From positions 62,001-126,000 of the forward strand of contig JAHQWH010000155.1 in the NCBI GenBank assembly GCA_029856105.1: a stretch of DNA of 64,000 nucleotides, read 5' to 3'. Each line of letters opens with the position of its first letter. Positions within the stretch are counted from its first letter, which is position 1. This DNA is from Promethearchaeia archaeon. GTDB taxonomy: Archaea > Asgardarchaeota > Lokiarchaeia > Sigyniarchaeales > SOKP01. The notes under the pieces were generated by a model that did not search any database, was not told the origin of the DNA, and worked only from the letters and a program-made list of their open reading frames with translations. A program made the translations under genes and the position numbers. This document shows positions 34,409-42,054 of the stretch, piece by piece.

Positions 34409-35545
34409 ATGATGTCTGAAACTTATGAAAACTTTATGATTTATGGATTAGAAAGTACCGGAGAAAAAGTAAGGTTAGATATAACAGAAGAAGATTTTCG
34501 CGCTAATAATGGAACGAACGTATTAAATCCTTTCCAAGTACTAGTTATCGTAAAAGAAGGGTTGAGGAGAATCTACATTTGGAAGGGTATTGAGTCCCCC
34601 GTTAGAAAAAAGTTTATTGCGTCGCAAGTCGCAGCACAATTACAAAACGATTTAGTCGTTAATGGCCATTTTCATAGGTGTAAGATAATTTCGGTCGACC
34701 AAGGAGACGAACCACGCGATTTTTTGAGAGCGTTTGATTTTGAATCAACAGAAATTCCAGAAATCTCAGAAGCTGACAAAAGCGAGTTTAGACAGATTAA
34801 CTCTATTTCTACGGGTACAACATCTAAAACTATAGAAAAGAAGGTTTATCAATGGGGGGGACCTCCTCCTGCTTTAAAAGCTAATAGTACAATCATCAAA
34901 CAAACAAGAGAATCCGATAAAGCAATTACGCCAAAAATTAAAGACATTAATAAACCTCCCGAATTAGATACTAAGAAAATTATCGAAAAGATTGTAGCAA
35001 ACGAGGTCCCAGCCAATTTTAAGCGTCAAAATTTGATTTTAGGTAACTTCGAAATTTACGGAGCAGTTATCAAGAAAGCTAAAATTTTCGGAAAAGAAGT
35101 AGAAGAGATCGATTGGGAACCAGTTAACTCCTTACCTCACGAAGTAGTCGAGCTAGATAATCGCACTTTAAGAATTTATTTCGATGGAGAAAATGGGACA
35201 ATCAAAGGACTAGAAATACTTCAAAAAATGGGTGCTCCTCAAATTGAAAAAAAAGATAGCAAAATAGATTATAATAAATGGACAGTAAAAGATTTGAAGC
35301 AATATTGCCAAGAACGCAACATAAAAATACCATCGTGGTATAAAAAAGCAGATATTATAAAGCTTATTCAATACGGGCCCACTCAAGATGCTACTGAACA
35401 AAAAATTGACTATAACAAGTGGACGGTAAAACTACTAAAGGAATTCTGTCAAAAAAATAATATTAAGGTTCCATCTTCCTATAGAAAAGCGGATATCATA
35501 CAACTTGTGAATGATTTTAATAATAGTATACCAAATAAAGATTAA
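34409..35545 (+). CDS. Gelsolin-like domain protein with two C-terminal HeH (SAP/Rho_N-like) repeats
   Basis: 378 residues (ATG 34409 or 34412). Residues about 8-112 have the gelsolin-fold pattern: NPFQVLVIVKEGLRRIYIWKG (40-60), a following helix SPVRKKFIASQVAAQL, and VDQGDEPRDFLRAF (96-109), equivalent to the conserved end of gelsolin domains. A basic linker follows. A second beta-rich region at about 195-275 begins LILGNFEIYGAVIKKA. The C-terminus is an exact tandem of two 47-residue units (285-331 and 332-378), each with DYNKWTVKxLKxxCQxxNIK and Y(K/R)KADII, a helix-extended-loop-helix fold of the SAP/LEM/Rho_N type. Gelsolin-like proteins are an Asgard signature and regulate actin-like filaments; the HeH tail suggests a nucleic-acid or other tether (inference). 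Confidence 0.82.
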   Translation: MMSETYENFMIYGLESTGEKVRLDITEEDFRANNGTNVLNPFQVLVIVKEGLRRIYIWKGIESPVRKKFIASQVAAQLQNDLVVNGHFHRCKIISVDQGDEPRDFLRAFDFESTEIPEISEADKSEFRQINSISTGTTSKTIEKKVYQWGGPPPALKANSTIIKQTRESDKAITPKIKDINKPPELDTKKIIEKIVANEVPANFKRQNLILGNFEIYGAVIKKAKIFGKEVEEIDWEPVNSLPHEVVELDNRTLRIYFDGENGTIKGLEILQKMGAPQIEKKDSKIDYNKWTVKDLKQYCQERNIKIPSWYKKADIIKLIQYGPTQDATEQKIDYNKWTVKLLKEFCQKNNIKVPSSYRKADIIQLVNDFNNSIPNKD

Positions 35546-35829: not shown

Positions 35830-36870
35830 ATGAAAACAAAATCGCAGATTAATATTTTGACCTATATAGGCCGCAGAATATTAATTTCAATTCCTGTTTT
35901 ATTTGGGATCATAACAATAGCCTTTTTAATTAGTAGGGCGGTTCCAGGTGATCCTGCTCTTAATAGGCTTCCTGTTCAAGCCCTTGGTAGATTATATGAA
36001 GCGGAACGAGAGAAATTAGGATTAAATCAACCAATTATTGTACAATATTTAATATTTATAAGATTAATATTAACCGGGGATTGGGGATATTCATTAGTAA
36101 TATCACCAGATACCGAAATCTGGTTTCTGATATGGGAGCGTTTGCCAAGAACATTAGAACTTATCTTCATAAGCATGTTCATTGCAACATATATAGGACT
36201 TAAAATAGGGAAAAAAACAGCTTTTAAAAGAAATAAATTTCAAGATAGTATGAGTAGAGTTATACTTTATTTGATTATGGCTATTCCGGGATATTTAATA
36301 GCATTGTCTACTTTATATTATTTCTCAGCTACGGATATTAAATTATTTCCTTTTTGGGGCTATAAAACGCCAGGCATAGGAGACCCACCTACGATTACTT
36401 ACTCTCGAATAATAGATTCACTATTAGTTTTTAGGTTTGATATTACAATTGATTATTTATATCATTTATTTGTTCCAATTATTACACTGGTTATTATTCA
36501 ACTTGTAATAATAACTAGGCATACCAGATCAAGTATGATAACTATTTTACAGCAAGATTATATTCGAACTGCCATAGCAAAGGGAGTAGATGATAAAACA
36601 GTGCTTAAAAAACATGCACTAAAAAATGCTATTCCGCCTGTAATTACTCAAATTACAATGGGTTTTCCTACTCTACTTGGAACTATGATACCAATTGAAG
36701 TAGCGTTAGAGATTAAGGGGATTGGTCAATGGTTTAATAATGCAGTATACCTCAAAGATTATAATATAATTGTTGCATTAGTATTTGTATACGGAATAAT
36801 AGCAATATCTTTCAATCTAATTGCAGATATTGCATATTCAATAGCAGATCCAAGAATAAGATATAAATAA
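35830..36870 (+). CDS. DppB/OppB-type ABC transporter permease (orphan)
   Basis: 346 residues. The start YIGRRILISIPVLFGIITIAFLI and VPGDPA are diagnostic of the first permease of peptide/nickel importers. The EAA loop is in HTRSSMITILQQDYIRTAIAKG, then KHALKNAIPPVITQI, and the C-terminus has ADPRIRYK. About six helices. The partners normally encoded with it (second permease DppC, ATPases, binding protein) are absent: the next gene is on the other strand. It may work with components elsewhere or be a remnant of an operon. Confidence 0.9.
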   Translation: MKTKSQINILTYIGRRILISIPVLFGIITIAFLISRAVPGDPALNRLPVQALGRLYEAEREKLGLNQPIIVQYLIFIRLILTGDWGYSLVISPDTEIWFLIWERLPRTLELIFISMFIATYIGLKIGKKTAFKRNKFQDSMSRVILYLIMAIPGYLIALSTLYYFSATDIKLFPFWGYKTPGIGDPPTITYSRIIDSLLVFRFDITIDYLYHLFVPIITLVIIQLVIITRHTRSSMITILQQDYIRTAIAKGVDDKTVLKKHALKNAIPPVITQITMGFPTLLGTMIPIEVALEIKGIGQWFNNAVYLKDYNIIVALVFVYGIIAISFNLIADIAYSIADPRIRYK

Positions 36871-36946
36871 CCCCTAAAGAATTAACAGTGGTTATTAAAA
36901 AATTATCAAAATAATGAAAATAAAAAAATTACTAAATTAAATTTAC

Positions 36947-39913
36947 TTAATCCTGAGAAGCGTAGAAATCGTCGAAATTCTCTTGTAATTGATCTATGTA
37001 TAGCTTTCTCTTTCCAGGTATAACTTTTTCTGTAAGCATTTTTGCTTTCGCGTAGCAGGTGGCTGCTTCTACGCGCATTCCTAAGTGTTTATAAGACTTG
37101 GCTAATTTTAGAAAAGTGTGAAATGCGAACCAACCTCTTGGGTTAGCTTCTAAAGCCTGGGTAAATTTCTCGATAGCACCTTTATAATTTTCTGAGTTCA
37201 TCAATACTTCTCCATAGGTATCATACAGGTTTGCATCGAGAGGATGGAGTTCGATAGCTTTTTCAATTGTCTCAATCGCTTCATCGTATCTTCCGATATT
37301 ACTCAATGAAATGGCTCTATTGTTTAATAACCCTGAAGAATCCGGATAAAGGTCTAAGGCTTCGTCAAGAGTCTTGATCACTTCTAAATATTTACCCATC
37401 GTGTAATACGTAAAACTTTTCAGTTGATACAGCGACTTACGCTCCTGTGGAAATCTTTTCATCATCTCATCGATTAGTGCCATTAATTCACCTTTCATAT
37501 TATCGTTCGGGAGATATAAGTAAATTTTTGTAGCATGGAAATCGTAGTGGTCAGGGCTTAGTTCAATTGCTTTTTCAATTTCAACTAAAGCCTCTACTAT
37601 CCCATTTGTCTCATTTAAAATATAACTATAAAGTTGATAATACCTAGACAACTGTTTTTCACTCGGCTCCATTGATATCGCCTTCTCAAATTCTTCAACA
37701 TAGAGCTTTTTGTCTGCTTTATTCGCGTCAAAATTGTATACAATGTTAAATCCGTGAACTAATCCAGTAATAATATGAGAAAGTGGGTGGTTTGCGTAAT
37801 GAAATTTTACCTTGTTGACGATGTCTAAGGCTTTCTCGAATTTTCCTCGTGCTAAATACGAAAAGGATAGTATCAAATACGCTGCCGTATCAACACGGGG
37901 GTTACGCTTGAGTAAATTGAATTCAACTACCTGTTTAATCCAATCTTTTCCCTCTTTGTACTTATTTGTAACCGTGTATAATAGAGCTTTCATTACTGAG
38001 AGTTCCAAGTCCTTAGGATTTGCTTCAATTAATAAATTAATAAGTTCCAAAGGTTCGTCAATCGATTTTACACAGCACTCTTTGTCTGTTAGGAGGCACA
38101 GGAATTTAGTTCGTTGGAGCAAAAAATTATCAGGATGTTCAGCTAATGCTTCTTCAACAACGTCTAAAGCTTTATTGTGATCCAGATTTATTAATATTTG
38201 TGCTTTTTGAGCAATAAGCGACACATCGTAAGTCCTGCTTAACCCTGATTCGATTGTTTCTAAAGCTCTACTGTGATTACCCATAAAGAAATAGGTTATT
38301 GATTGAAATAAATAACCAATATATTCGTCAGGGTGTTTTATGATGATTTCTTCAGTTAGCTCGAGCGAATCCTCTAACTCTCCGTTGTATGTGTAAAATA
38401 AATCTTTCAGAAGCAATAACTCGATATCAGTTAAATTCTTTAGATTCTCTGTAAGTAAGTCGTTTACTTTAGATTGTTTCCCTCTCGTTAATTTATGTTC
38501 AATTTTTGTCAAAAATTCCGAATTCTTAGGAAAGTATGTCTTTTTGAACTGAGATGTTCTAATAAAGTTAATTTTAGTCAAATAGAATATGTCCAAAGTA
38601 TCAAAAATTCTGTTGTGTAAGAAATAATACGCTTCGCTATCGGCTGGTTTGTTCATCGTACTCGCCGTATCAGATGTATCAAAACTTTGAATTACCTCGA
38701 AAACGTTTTGAAAGGCGATCCCTTTTATTTTATCTGTGTGGTTGATCAAATTCTTCTCGCTCTCAAATTTATAGGCCAAATGCTCGATATACTCGGGAAT
38801 GAATTTTTTTAAAGCCGGTTTCAACTCGTCGTGGAATAAATTACTACACATTTCGCCGGTTATATCTTCAAGTAACTCGTTGATATCGGGTATGTGATAT
38901 TGAACTCCATTTGCTTTCTGGAATTTACTCAAATACGTAAACTTCCTAATATAATCCTCGATAATTACATTGAGCATTTTTTCTAACCGCTCTTCTGCCT
39001 GAATGTAGTATGTGTATTTATTGCTCACATTTAATTTAAAGAAGCGTATCGGGTAGATGTTATCTTCAACGATCTTCTCAATGAAGAAGTTCAGTGTTGT
39101 TAGCTTTATATCGTATTCTAAAGCAAAATCTTTAGATGTGATGTAGTTAGGGTATTGATCCGGGTGATTAATAGCGAGATAAAGCAAAATTTTATCAAAA
39201 TCCACCTCGTCGGATAAAGTGCTTTCAACCTTAGTATAATCCAACCTAAGTACCATATTCAAAAATCTGTATTTTATCCCGTCATCATAGATATCGTAAT
39301 CGTTAAAAAACTCTGTTACCTTGTCTGTTATTACCTCAACTCTCTTAATCTCTTCGTTTAATATTGATTGGCGATCCAAATCGTATTTTTTTAACATATT
39401 AAAGTATTCTAGTTCACCTGAATTAGTAATCTGATACTCGCGGTTACTTTTTTCGATATAACCATTATCTAGTAAAATATTTATATTCTTTGACAATGAA
39501 GATTGATTAATTCTGAGTGGTTCCTCAAGGAAATCTGACCATTTACAATGGTGGTTATTATATAACATCCATAGAATCCAATCGTCGTAATTTCTCTTAT
39601 TTGTTATAATCTCAGGTGGATAATTCAACGTTTTTTCTAGCGCATCTTTAACTTGAAGATCGGCATACTGTTGACGACCCTCAGCTGTAATCTTATACTT
39701 ACCCTTTGTCTCCTTCTCAATAAAACCATTATTAATTAATATTGCAAGATATTTCGACAAAGTTGCTTGACTTATATTTACAGGATCCGATTTAAAATCA
39801 GACCATGAACAATGGTCGTTATTATAGAGCATCCAGAGTATAATATGCTCAAAATCTTTGTTGATTTTCATAGGAGTAATTATACCTTCAGGTGGAAATT
39901 TTGGTACACTCAT
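36947..39913 (-). CDS. Tandem winged-helix and TPR regulator
   Basis: 988 residues. Residues 18-95 and about 105-180 are two similar winged-helix domains, each with WMLYNNxHCxWSDF, SQATLSKYL or NQSSLSKNI as recognition helix, and NGFIEKETKGKYKIT or NGYIEKSNREYQIT as the wing. A helical middle (about 190-490) is followed by roughly a dozen TPR units to residue 970, for example DEAIETIEKAIELHPLDAN and YKGAIEKFTQALEANPRGW. The gene is divergent from a small-ORF array, and its ATG lies 25 bp from a TATATA element, implying a leaderless message. A palindrome in the shared promoter may be its operator. HTH plus TPR is the architecture of peptide-responsive bacterial regulators, but the size here is much larger. 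Confidence 0.87.
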   Translation of the reverse strand: MSVPKFPPEGIITPMKINKDFEHIILWMLYNNDHCSWSDFKSDPVNISQATLSKYLAILINNGFIEKETKGKYKITAEGRQQYADLQVKDALEKTLNYPPEIITNKRNYDDWILWMLYNNHHCKWSDFLEEPLRINQSSLSKNINILLDNGYIEKSNREYQITNSGELEYFNMLKKYDLDRQSILNEEIKRVEVITDKVTEFFNDYDIYDDGIKYRFLNMVLRLDYTKVESTLSDEVDFDKILLYLAINHPDQYPNYITSKDFALEYDIKLTTLNFFIEKIVEDNIYPIRFFKLNVSNKYTYYIQAEERLEKMLNVIIEDYIRKFTYLSKFQKANGVQYHIPDINELLEDITGEMCSNLFHDELKPALKKFIPEYIEHLAYKFESEKNLINHTDKIKGIAFQNVFEVIQSFDTSDTASTMNKPADSEAYYFLHNRIFDTLDIFYLTKINFIRTSQFKKTYFPKNSEFLTKIEHKLTRGKQSKVNDLLTENLKNLTDIELLLLKDLFYTYNGELEDSLELTEEIIIKHPDEYIGYLFQSITYFFMGNHSRALETIESGLSRTYDVSLIAQKAQILINLDHNKALDVVEEALAEHPDNFLLQRTKFLCLLTDKECCVKSIDEPLELINLLIEANPKDLELSVMKALLYTVTNKYKEGKDWIKQVVEFNLLKRNPRVDTAAYLILSFSYLARGKFEKALDIVNKVKFHYANHPLSHIITGLVHGFNIVYNFDANKADKKLYVEEFEKAISMEPSEKQLSRYYQLYSYILNETNGIVEALVEIEKAIELSPDHYDFHATKIYLYLPNDNMKGELMALIDEMMKRFPQERKSLYQLKSFTYYTMGKYLEVIKTLDEALDLYPDSSGLLNNRAISLSNIGRYDEAIETIEKAIELHPLDANLYDTYGEVLMNSENYKGAIEKFTQALEANPRGWFAFHTFLKLAKSYKHLGMRVEAATCYAKAKMLTEKVIPGKRKLYIDQLQENFDDFYASQD

Positions 39914-39934
39914 GATTAAATAATGGTTTTGTAT

Positions 39935-40004
39935 CTATATAAGGTTTTTTATTCGCATCGAACTTCGAAGTTCGTTCGAACTTCCTAAAGTTAAACTATA
40001 TAAG
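39935..40004. promoter_or_regulatory. Divergent promoter region with two TATA elements
   Basis: CTATATAAG occurs twice, at 39935-39943 and 39996-40004. The left copy, read on the minus strand as CTTATATAG, is 25 bp from the regulator ATG. The right copy would place a plus-strand start near 40030, giving the first small gene a leader of about 45 nt. The palindromic element lies exactly between them. Confidence 0.55.
39959..39984. promoter_or_regulatory. Perfect palindrome with a third half-site (putative operator)
   Basis: 39959-39974 is a perfect 16-bp palindrome, CGAACTTCGAAGTTCG. Two bases later CGAACTTC recurs at 39977-39984, giving three GAACTTC-type half-sites. The site lies between the two TATA elements of the regulator and small-gene array, where binding could control both. 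It is strikingly GC-rich for this DNA. Confidence 0.65.
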
Positions 40005-40075
40005 AACTGCGAATCTAATAAAATTATCAACAAAAAAAGAACTTAAAAAAAAAAAAAGTAAAAAAGTGAAAAAAA

Positions 40076-40363
40076 ATGGCACAAGCAATAGTAAAAAAAA
40101 CCATTTCCAAAAACCATATGGAGTGCGACCTCCCAACTTTAGCCCAGAACTTAGCACTTGAGGTGCTGGAGCCTCAGGTGCTGGTTCAAATCAACGAAGA
40201 AGCGAAGGTTGAATCAAGTTTACTAAAGAACAAGTTTTTGAGAGTGTTCAATAATATTAAATATAACGCGAGGATTTCGGAAGAGAAAGTCTGTATAAAT
40301 AATTATAAGGGGCAAGTAGACGCAAAGCTTCTTGGAGCTCGCAATTCCATGTTAAATTTCTAA
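40076..40363 (+). CDS. Small protein 1 of the array (95 residues), function unknown
   Basis: 95 residues, no recognised family. Mixed helical prediction, Lys/Glu/Asn-rich, no signal peptide. It ends ARNSMLNF-stop; the two microgenes downstream also end in Leu-x-Phe-stop. An A-rich leader with AAGTGAAAAAAA precedes the ATG, and a T10 tract (40373-40382) follows. It is divergent from the winged-helix/TPR regulator and has the palindrome in its promoter. Confidence 0.55.
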   Translation: MAQAIVKKTISKNHMECDLPTLAQNLALEVLEPQVLVQINEEAKVESSLLKNKFLRVFNNIKYNARISEEKVCINNYKGQVDAKLLGARNSMLNF

Positions 40364-40372
40364 TTAAAAATA

Positions 40373-40382
40373 TTTTTTTTTT
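40373..40382 (+). terminator. Poly-T tract after small protein 1
   Basis: Ten consecutive T starting 10 bp after the stop codon, in the form expected of an archaeal intrinsic terminator. Equivalent tracts follow both microgenes downstream. Confidence 0.5.
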
Positions 40383-40432
40383 AACCAGGAAAAAAACAAA
40401 AAAACCAGAAAAAAAAAACGAGGTAAAATAAA

Positions 40433-40507
40433 ATGGAAAAGTATGAGGAAAGAAGAAGAATAATAATTAAGAACGCAGGGTACGTTCCTAAGCGTTTAGA
40501 TTTTTAA
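40433..40507 (+). CDS. Microgene 2 of the array (24 residues)
   Basis: ATG 40433 to TAA 40505-40507: MEKYEERRRIII, then KNAGYVPKRLDF. Highly basic N-terminal half and a C-terminal Gly-Tyr ... Leu-Asp-Phe. A purine-rich ACGAGGTAAAATAAA leader precedes the start, with GAGGT as ribosome binding site about 8 bp before ATG. A T8 tract at 40514-40521 follows. The third microgene has the same organisation. No known family. Confidence 0.5.
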   Translation: MEKYEERRRIIIKNAGYVPKRLDF

Positions 40508-40513
40508 ATTAAA

Positions 40514-40521
40514 TTTTTTTT
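40514..40521 (+). terminator. Poly-T tract after microgene 2
   Basis: Eight T, 6 bp after the stop codon, within ATTAAATTTTTTTTAAT. Placement parallels the tracts after the other two small genes. Confidence 0.45.
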
Positions 40522-40581
40522 AATTCAAGATTTAACCAAAACAAATAAAAAAAAACAAAAAATAAAAACGAGTGAAAAAAA

Positions 40582-40659
40582 ATGAAAAGAAAAGAGAGAA
40601 TATATAACAAAGCGATCCTAAACCCTACGGGATATAATACTGCAACATTAAGATTTTAA
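40582..40659 (+). CDS. Microgene 3 of the array (25 residues)
   Basis: ATG 40582 to TAA 40657-40659: MKRKERIYNKAI, then LNPTGYNTATLRF. It shares with microgene 2 a basic head containing Glu-Arg, a central Asn ... Gly-Tyr and a terminal Leu-x-Phe. Leader ACGAGTGAAAAAAA resembles that of microgene 2 (ACGAGGTAAAATAAA). A T9 tract (40665-40673) follows. The repeated layout argues that these very short frames are real, but nothing proves translation. Confidence 0.5.
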   Translation: MKRKERIYNKAILNPTGYNTATLRF

Positions 40660-40664
40660 ATTAA

Positions 40665-40673
40665 TTTTTTTTT
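40665..40673 (+). terminator. Poly-T tract after microgene 3
   Basis: Nine T beginning 6 bp after the stop codon, matching the arrangement at the preceding microgene. Confidence 0.45.
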
Positions 40674-40850
40674 AATTTTTATTTTTAAACATTTTAGATA
40701 GTTCTTTAAACTGTTTTCGCCCATTTTTAGAAATTAAGTAGCGACCTTCTTCTATTTTGAAAATAAATCCCTATCAGAGAGCAGACATAAATATTTTGAT
40801 ATATTTGGTTGAGAGAAACTGAGAGGTTTGTGATTTACGATATTGAAAAT
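40672..40850 (-). pseudogene. Decayed winged-helix domain related to the TPR regulator
   Basis: The minus strand contains KPLSFSQPNISKYLCLLSDR in one frame, and after a frameshift near 40771-40780 continues GFIFKIEEGRYLISKNGRKQ and FKELSKMF, ending at TAA 40672. Compare the living regulator: DPVNISQATLSKYLAIL and NNGFIEKETKGKYKITAEGR. The helix-turn-helix, wing and order all match, so this is a broken copy of the same domain family. It lies between microgene 3 and the protease gene. Confidence 0.6.
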
Positions 40851-40877
40851 TAAAAAAAATTAAATTTAATTAAAATT

Positions 40878-41789
40878 TTAACTAAATACACTGGTTCCTT
40901 CCTGCTCTAAGAGATTTCGAATCTTTGTGAGATAACTTCTTTTATAAAGTTGAAGCTTTGATTCAGAAAAAGGTAATAAACTCCAATAATAGACCAGAAT
41001 CTCTTCAGGATGTAATCTGTGCTGGTTGTTGTAAGGGTCGATTTCTTCGCACAAGTCAAACAATTTTTGGGGAGCGTTAATGAATTTTGGTCGATTGTTT
41101 TCATATAAAGGCAAGCATTTATTATCTTTCATTTCAGACTCAAGAAAAGTAAAACGGAAATATTCAAAGAAGTACCCACCATTATAAGGGGTTTTTGAAT
41201 AGAGAAAAGGAACTGCTTTTATTTGAGCCCCGTTGATCTGAAATTCTACATAGGAATTCTTCCCAATAGTATCAGGATTTGACACATATAGGTGTTTATA
41301 TTCTTTAGGGATATCTAATTCAGGACAAGCTGTAAATCCTAGTTTAAGATATAACTCATTCCTAAATTTTGGGTTAGTAGTGCTAATTACATGAAAAAGT
41401 TCGTGTGCGATTAGTTCTTTTAATTCGTCGTATGGCCATTGAACCATAGAAATTGGGACGTAGATACACGTATTCCTCGTATAAGCAGCATCACATTCCT
41501 CTCGACCTGTAGTTTTTATAAGCTTAACGCTGTCCAATAAGTATTCTTTGTACGGCGCGTAGCAAATGTCCAATTCACTGAAAATTCTATTAACGATAGT
41601 TTCCTCAGAATTTGTCCATTCAACCGTTTGTCGGGAAAGAAATTCCAATAAGTCTTCTTTCGATACCTTTTCCGTGGTTCCTAAGCGAGACTGTAAATCA
41701 AACTCGCTAAAATTAGAAATATAATCGTCTTTTTCGGCGATTATGGAGGATGCTATTTTTGCATCAATAAGTTCAGCCTTCAAATACAT
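40878..41789 (-). CDS. Predicted HExxH metalloprotease
   Basis: 303 residues. Zinc motif HELFH at 129-133 in LKELIAHELFHVIS; possible third ligand Glu262 or Glu263 in LHPEEILVYYWSLL near the C-terminus, as in gluzincins. No signal peptide or transmembrane helix, so it is probably cytoplasmic. I do not recognise a named peptidase family. It converges on the small-gene array and winged-helix remnant, which raises the possibility that it processes the small products (inference from position only). Confidence 0.75.
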   Translation of the reverse strand: MYLKAELIDAKIASSIIAEKDDYISNFSEFDLQSRLGTTEKVSKEDLLEFLSRQTVEWTNSEETIVNRIFSELDICYAPYKEYLLDSVKLIKTTGREECDAAYTRNTCIYVPISMVQWPYDELKELIAHELFHVISTTNPKFRNELYLKLGFTACPELDIPKEYKHLYVSNPDTIGKNSYVEFQINGAQIKAVPFLYSKTPYNGGYFFEYFRFTFLESEMKDNKCLPLYENNRPKFINAPQKLFDLCEEIDPYNNQHRLHPEEILVYYWSLLPFSESKLQLYKRSYLTKIRNLLEQEGTSVFS

Positions 41790-42054
41790 TTCACCCTAGT
41801 AAAAAATGCAAATGGATTTAATGATGAAAATTATGAGATTGTATTTAAAAAAACAGAGGGTAAAAAATTAGTATTCAGTCGAAATTGATATTAAAACCTC
41901 TCCTTATTTCCGTGATTTATGATATTATTTTTTTAATATTTAATATTTATATGGTATGTATGGGTAACTGTTATTTAGCAAACAAAATATGGTTAGAGAG
42001 TATTACTAATTGTCTAAAATCTAAATCTACAAATTAGCTAAAGGTGGGAAAGAA

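Follow-up and report, generated by a model that had tools for sequence, protein, structure and literature searches.

A predicted winged-helix and TPR regulator with a divergent array of microprotein genes recurs in Lokiarchaeota

A 64,000-nucleotide stretch of a Promethearchaeia archaeon genome (GenBank assembly GCA_029856105.1, contig JAHQWH010000155.1, positions 62,001 to 126,000; hereafter the window) encodes a 988 amino acid (aa) regulator with predicted winged helices and tetratricopeptide repeats (TPR). Divergent from it lies an array of three microgenes of 95, 24 and 25 codons. The microgenes code for conserved proteins, the array adjoins the regulator in all ten close orthologues with readable upstream DNA, and an operator candidate between the two promoters is conserved and unique in the genome at up to two mismatches. 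The reading we favour, with about even confidence, is a one-component switch in which the regulator likely binds this operator and controls its own gene and, as its output, the microprotein array. The pairing recurs in dozens of Lokiarchaeota (Asgard) genomes, so that Lokiarchaeota gain a sizeable family of local regulators with matching small-protein operons. Genes of 22-29 aa fall under length cut-offs common in gene finders. A full-text literature search, with most subscription papers outside its scope, found no published description of such a regulator-microgene locus.

The array begins 162 bp from the regulator gene with gene A (40076-40363, + strand), which encodes a 95 aa protein with an M-x-Q start, a conserved C-terminal region and the end LNF, and which founds a new small-protein family. 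Gene C (40433-40507, +) encodes 24 aa with the tail RLDF and gene D (40582-40659, +) 25 aa with the tail TLRF. They are preceded by the Shine-Dalgarno-like motifs GAGGT (40420-40424, +; orthologues carry a similar motif before C) and GAGTGA (40570-40575, +), respectively. Each gene has its own T-tract on the 3' side, of ten (40373-40382, +), eight (40514-40521, +) and nine bases (40665-40673, +). An earlier note, made from the letters of this DNA alone, had described the three genes with their Leu-x-Phe ends (LNF, LDF, LRF) and T-tracts, and they are present just as it described them.

Orthologues were taken from ten same-genus genomes whose regulator shows 60-92% identity along almost the entire protein and whose upstream DNA is readable; an eleventh close orthologue (L044) is a fragment and stands outside this set. 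The divergent array adjoins the regulator in 10 of 10. Of the parts linked in the earlier note, regulator and microgenes thus form a conserved unit, an outcome opposite to the note's own refuting condition that microgenes should be missing beside regulator orthologues. Four gene types recur: A (89-95 aa, MAQA start), B (23-29 aa, for example ..EGFNPANLICRF; found in relatives), C (22-25 aa, for example ..IIIKNAGYIPERLEF) and D (22-25 aa, for example ..AILNPTGYNTATLRF). The window holds A, C and D without B, L036 holds B, C and D, and L034, L037 and L038 hold all four. Gene A orthologues, 36-75% identical, occur in nine of the ten loci, as do those of gene C (two with a GTG start), the tenth contig (L039) stopping short of the C position. 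Gene D is intact in four of the ten; it is counted only where intact, which gives five rows, and the copies in L040 and L041 look decayed by eye.

The proteins encoded by all four types are under purifying selection. The ratio of nonsynonymous to synonymous differences per site (pN/pS), pooled over all pairs of rows that are related by descent, is 0.61 for A (10 rows), 0.63 for B (10), 0.51 for C (10) and 0.43 for D (5), and none of 200 column bootstraps reaches 1 for any type. Each of the 35 A-D genes in the close orthologues passes a lenient Shine-Dalgarno filter; in 31 of them a tract of at least four T follows within about 45 bases of the stop.

The microproteins tend to end alike. A hydrophobic-x-F/Y end closes 3/3 window microgenes, compared with 12 of 172 larger open frames (at least 200 aa, from 16 loci). 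Among the close arrays this end is found in 6/10 A, 4/10 B, 8/10 C and 4/5 D proteins, and F or Y is the last residue in 8/10, 7/10, 8/10 and 5/5, against 20/172 of the larger frames; the array rows share descent, and what counts as independent is therefore the four gene families and not the 35 genes. Similar tails recur on proteins with dissimilar N-termini. The N-termini are charged and carry no hydrophobic core: the highest 15-residue mean hydropathy among the 35 proteins is 1.07, so no signal-peptide-like core is seen by hydropathy, although they may leave the cell by some other export route.

Between the regulator and gene A lie two TATA-like boxes, read by eye. One precedes the regulator (39936-39941, - strand) about 25 bp from its ATG, a spacing that suggests a leaderless transcript, and has similar counterparts in orthologues; the other precedes the array (39997-40003, +) and is similarly placed in orthologues. 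The earlier note had pointed to a perfect 16-bp palindrome between the promoters, CGAACTTCGAAGTTCG (39959-39974, unstranded). The palindrome is there; of the 11 orthologous intergenic regions, counting that of the window, three carry it exactly. The more conserved site is an overlapping inverted repeat, GAAGTTCG-TT-CGAACTTC (39967-39984, unstranded), which is exact in 7 of the 11, with one mismatch in two, two in one and four in one. Together the 11 regions contain 25 GAACTTC/GAAGTTC sites, against a shuffle mean of 0.3. The site lies between the two TATA-like boxes and upstream of both, which fits control of both promoters, whether by activation or by repression, and the conserved repeat is probably their shared operator.

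The operator pattern is unique up to two mismatches in the 3.66-Mb genome (92% complete), with one further place at three. That place carries no meaning because a reversed control pattern gave two forward and two reverse matches; a wider regulon sought through the operator was rejected. The half-sites GAACTTC/GAAGTTC are also enriched elsewhere in the family: the DNA ahead of 57 additional regulators contains 51 of them, spread over 39 regions, where shuffling gives a mean of 1.1.

The regulator gene (36947-39913, -) encodes a protein that matches the Pfam families HTH_45 (2.5e-12) and TPR_2 (2.4e-25), as well as HTH_34 and MarR-type and ArsR-type families. An AlphaFold2 model built from 56 sequences (mean predicted local distance difference test score, pLDDT, 83.3; predicted template modelling score, pTM, 0.58) places winged helices at residues ~21-89 and ~109-176 and a long superhelix of helical TPR repeats in the C-terminal half (~496-987). 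The two winged helices and TPR half read in the earlier note stand, although its count of two is incomplete: the model adds a third helix-turn-helix with two strands, a winged helix, at ~236-330. We thus predict from sequence families and the model that the protein combines winged-helix DNA binding with a TPR superhelix, that is, a DNA-binding and a putative sensor domain in one chain. The solved folds closest to the model in Foldseek are general TPR proteins (TTC7B, APC/C subunits, OGT, LbcA, Tom70/71). A tblastn search of the regulator against IMG/VR contigs found no relative, and a viral origin was rejected.

At E 1e-120 the regulator family has matches in 44 of 227 genomes of the phylum, a lower bound since three candidates were scored per genome, and these genomes belong to 4 of the 61 genera, which all sit in a single taxonomic family. 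Open frames of the regulator family span ~635-1030 aa, apart from two of ~460 and one 595 aa fragment, and its size classes of ~990, ~840 and ~640 residues have the N-terminal 400-450 in common. A scan of named genomes with the regulator alignment kept 75 loci among the best 80 of 143, all titled Lokiarchaeota or Lokiarchaeia. A protein search also lists records under Hermod-, Hod-, Thor- or Odinarchaeota source names, and the family may reach beyond Lokiarchaeota.

The divergent partner tracks the regulator lineage. On a tree of 70 N-terminal sequences, 46 regulators face arrays, 5 kinase-like pairs, 10 membrane, secreted or other large proteins, and 9 have no partner seen; the labels were set by hand from locus reading, and an array here means one or more such small genes, in some loci no more than an A-like gene or one short gene. 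For L045 the row shows the locus's second regulator rather than the array-adjoining one, L009 (partner of 917 aa) was grouped with membrane and secreted proteins, and L055 (34 bp upstream) and the L044 fragment were left out. Partner type changes 10 times, compared with a shuffled mean of 22.8, and none of 200 shuffles is as low. The clade of 12 that holds the window regulator has arrays throughout, and kinase-like partners are confined to one clade (support 100/99). Regulators of that clade (L070, L071, L073, L079, L082) are divergent from a 242-254 aa gene that looks histidine-kinase-like by eye, followed in four of the five loci by a gene of 279-281 aa. Among the regulator-linked arrays read, KDL- and RDLLK-type tails occur only with short-class regulators. 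Near short-class regulators or A-like genes there are also small GTPase genes (IGAQFSKF..FWDIAGQ, by eye; L010, L086, L090, L091, L094, L173) and TPR-like genes of ~650 aa (L010, L084).

Searching with a 28-member alignment, we find 77 matches to the gene A family in 45 of the 227 genomes. The window protein has no Pfam match and its structure model is poor (mean pLDDT 61.7, best in the C-terminal part); the 120 records listed for the family are unnamed or hypothetical, except one called nucleoside diphosphate kinase. For 54 of the 77 matches a divergent regulator of the family lies within 4 kb (42 by coordinates, 12 by locus reading), at 155-287 bp in 32 of the 42 measured; the rows behind these distances are related by descent. 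Forty-one genomes appear in both the A-family and regulator lists, and of the four A-family genomes outside the regulator list, G024 and G050 carry a more distant regulator beside their A gene. The arrays of L045, L056 and L170 include 45-46 aa CxxC proteins ending FDF that resemble zinc ribbons by eye.

Beside other arrays no regulator is seen. Nine same-genus genomes share one type of orphan array, in eight of them with a 75-79 aa protein listed ahead of it whose end resembles that of the short KDL-type microgenes; this type combines both tail kinds. A GAACTTC-type half-site lies upstream of 14 of 22 examined A genes that lack a nearby regulator, against a background of 0.29. In G159 the regulator (L057) and the array (L170) sit on separate contigs and share an operator stretch (score 35; none of 300 shuffles as high), and the DNA upstream of L170 scores highest with regulators beside like arrays (L059, 99; L056, 87; L045, 85). 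Orphan arrays L144, L150, L152-L155, L157, L161 and L162 share a leader, AAACCCGA..TCGGG-GGAGGTGGCGAAA, upstream of the first small gene; by eye it reads as a hairpin followed by a Shine-Dalgarno motif and is possibly an RNA regulatory element. Rfam has no match at gathering score for this leader in L144, L150, L152, L154, L155, L157 and L161. Another leader, GGGCGAA-containing and hairpin-like by eye, precedes the A-like gene in L172, L173 and L175 and likewise has no Rfam match at gathering score; the A-like proteins of these loci have a seemingly antitoxin-like N-terminus.

The switch that we favour would work as follows. The 988-residue regulator would bind the GAACTTC-type operator between the divergent promoters and, as activator or repressor, would control its own gene and the small-protein array, with the TPR half sensing an inducing signal. 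The T-tracts would end part of the transcripts, and the promoter-near genes would therefore be made most. The microproteins, predicted to be cytosolic, would be the output of the switch, with C-terminal tails that would dock on a hypothetical partner. Because the partner genes of sister regulators encode membrane proteins or kinase-like proteins instead, and because beside some arrays no regulator is seen, the microproteins read as a likely output; being a regulated output is a role that the partners in every regulator lineage could have in common. Divergently autoregulated one-component regulators combine a regulator gene, a shared operator and a divergent target operon. The locus resembles them in joining DNA-binding and putative sensor domains, in its shared operator candidate and in its divergent operon, but differs in having two or three winged helices plus a long TPR run and, as target, an array whose proteins are 22-95 aa long and whose genes mostly have a Shine-Dalgarno-like motif and a T-tract each. 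The conserved tails and a defined 18-bp operator candidate make concrete tests possible.

Several observations weigh against this reading. No regulator is seen within 4 kb of 23 of the 77 gene A matches, among them contig-end cases, one likely spurious match (G131) and orphans, and 8 of the 22 examined A genes without a regulator also have no upstream half-site. In G159, L057 has only rank 34 of 68 when matched to the L170 array, and for three further candidate split pairs the operator match is unconvincing (equalled in 8, 125 and 208 of 300 shuffles). The tails within one array are alike rather than identical.

The shared hydrophobic-x-aromatic ends, the TPR and the adjacency keep alive another reading, possible though rather doubtful, in which the TPR superhelix would take the small proteins, or pieces from their C-termini, as its ligand and the array would tune its own regulator. 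Such peptide feedback could run within one cell or between cells, working like the RRNPP systems with a separate origin. It is in keeping with a TPR receptor beside 22-29 aa genes under a shared divergent operator, with the common ends of non-homologous members of close arrays, and with the restriction of KDL and RDLLK tails to short-class regulators among the regulator-linked arrays read. Other TPR proteins, such as Hop and PEX5, hold C-terminal peptide tails, and complexes of Tom71 with the Hsp70 (Ssa1) tail are among the best 50 Foldseek matches of the regulator model. The superhelix may likewise read tails, although Tom70/71, Hop and PEX5 are chaperone or import receptors without DNA binding. 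Peptide feedback sits poorly with sister regulators that have no microgene partner, with arrays that have no regulator seen alongside (one type of which combines both tail kinds), with the several different tails per array, and with the absence of a secretion-type segment by hydropathy.

The earlier note had likened the locus to the RRNPP family, and with RRNPP/RRNPPA members (Rap, Rgg, NprR, PlcR, PrgX, AimR) it does share N-terminal DNA binding, found in most of them, a C-terminal TPR region and adjacent small genes. Streptococcal Rgg-SHP and ComR-ComS, in which very short genes adjoin the receptor, are similar in this respect, but the microproteins here have charged N-termini without a hydrophobic core. 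PMC10075063 gives a five-point RRNPP signature that includes a propeptide of 10-100 aa, Sec secretion or PptAB export like that of the SHPs (short hydrophobic peptides, which are not recognised as Sec-exported), a receptor of 250-500 aa with TPRs, and adjacent receptor and propeptide genes, with a PF01381-type helix-turn-helix in DNA-binding members. Measured against these points, the small proteins (95, 24 and 25 aa), the TPR receptor (TPR_2 2.4e-25; repeats ~496-987) and the adjacency (162 bp; small genes adjacent in 10/10 orthologues) agree. The receptor length (988 aa) and the helix-turn-helix type (HTH_45/MarR-like winged helices instead) do not, and membership of the family is not borne out. 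PF01381 is not among the best 25 of the 46 Pfam families matching the regulator, and no RRNPP receptor appears among the best 50 fold matches of its model. The locus also departs from RRNPP systems, and equally from Rgg-SHP and ComR-ComS, in that its TPR run is longer, each locus has several unlike small genes (here one encodes 95 aa), sister regulators lack such genes, the host is archaeal and no secretion-type segment is seen by hydropathy.

We tentatively entertain a broader form of this idea: an archaeal peptide-receptor system independent of RRNPP, in which the TPR of a dedicated winged-helix regulator reads microprotein C-terminal tails, and receptor lineages and tail types co-diversify across Lokiarchaeota. 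If the TPR does read the tails, DNA-binding TPR proteins that sense peptides would no longer be confined to Gram-positive bacteria and their mobile elements, and encoded-peptide signalling would occur in those archaea that are regarded as nearest to eukaryotes.

The small proteins could instead be toxins, antitoxins or precursors of modified peptides in a toxin-antitoxin, defence or peptide-antibiotic locus. Several small genes stand under one regulator, gene content varies between relatives, a ThiF-family gene lies 4 kb away, and the distant A-like protein of L173 may have an antitoxin-like N-terminus, as mentioned. The window gene A protein matches no Pfam family, however, and the regulator has no IMG/VR relative by tblastn, in searches that did not extend to the PADLOC defence library. 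The ThiF gene, which was seen in 3 of the 10 orthologous loci within the DNA covered, is part of an adjacent syntenic block and was rejected as a peptide-modifying enzyme. We consider a locus of this kind unlikely.

Gene A contains a conserved stem-loop (40154-40181, +; arms 40154-40163 and 40172-40181) with a 10-bp stem. Of 110 cells 97.3% are paired, a value reached in 1 of 500 shuffles, and double changes occur at two pairs, a number reached in 19 of 500; same-residue codon pairs are identical in 266 of 298 cases within the stem-loop compared with 1107 of 1653 elsewhere. It is conserved at the nucleotide level and may be an RNA element or a DNA site. No known RNA family is found in the window at 36900-41900 up to E 0.5, or at gathering score in 10 orphan-array loci. 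The stem-loop and the T-tracts after 31 of 35 genes are what would be expected if the short open reading frames acted through translation or the stem-loop as a regulatory leader RNA, with the peptides as by-products. We regard this as quite improbable: all four gene types are under purifying selection at the protein level, no window gene 3' of the array is kept in all orthologous loci, and the A family is retained in other contexts.

An HExxH protein, presumptive protease (40878-41789, -; 303 aa open reading frame, motif HELFH), converges on the array as the earlier note stated. It has matches in 9 of 77 genomes. In all five that also hold a regulator at least 60% identical (G000, G002, G004, G008, G009) the two share a contig, with the protease on the array side and pointing towards the array at a distance of less than 1 kb to ~10 kb. 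It adjoins a block of GNAT, seven-transmembrane (7TM) and other genes, keeps that company in G003, and is missing from the same block in array loci L034 and L037. That it matures or destroys the peptides as the third part of the system, as the note suggested, is very improbable, and we reject it on presence, absence and synteny as an intermittent neighbour: no protease match at E 1e-5 is found in six array-bearing same-genus genomes (G007, G010, G014, G017, G021, G022), and no regulator is seen on the 9-14 kb covered around it in G020, G030 and G034.

Between array and protease, L036 (9920-10168) and L038 (8158-8406) carry a solitary winged-helix fragment, 49-53% identical to the regulator N-terminus over 75-83 aa matched. 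By eye, a seemingly decayed remnant of it occupies 40660-40870 (-) in the window. On the other flank of the locus, a lone permease (35830-36870), which we take to be DppB/OppB-like, was rejected as a peptide importer, with no tblastn match (at least 35% identity, 60 aa) in the 10 orthologous loci as far as these were covered. Beyond it the window has a gene (34409-35545) whose product carries HeH/SAP repeats and matches gelsolin weakly. This protein lies on the 3' side of the regulator in 9 of the 10 orthologous loci, the tenth contig stopping at the regulator.

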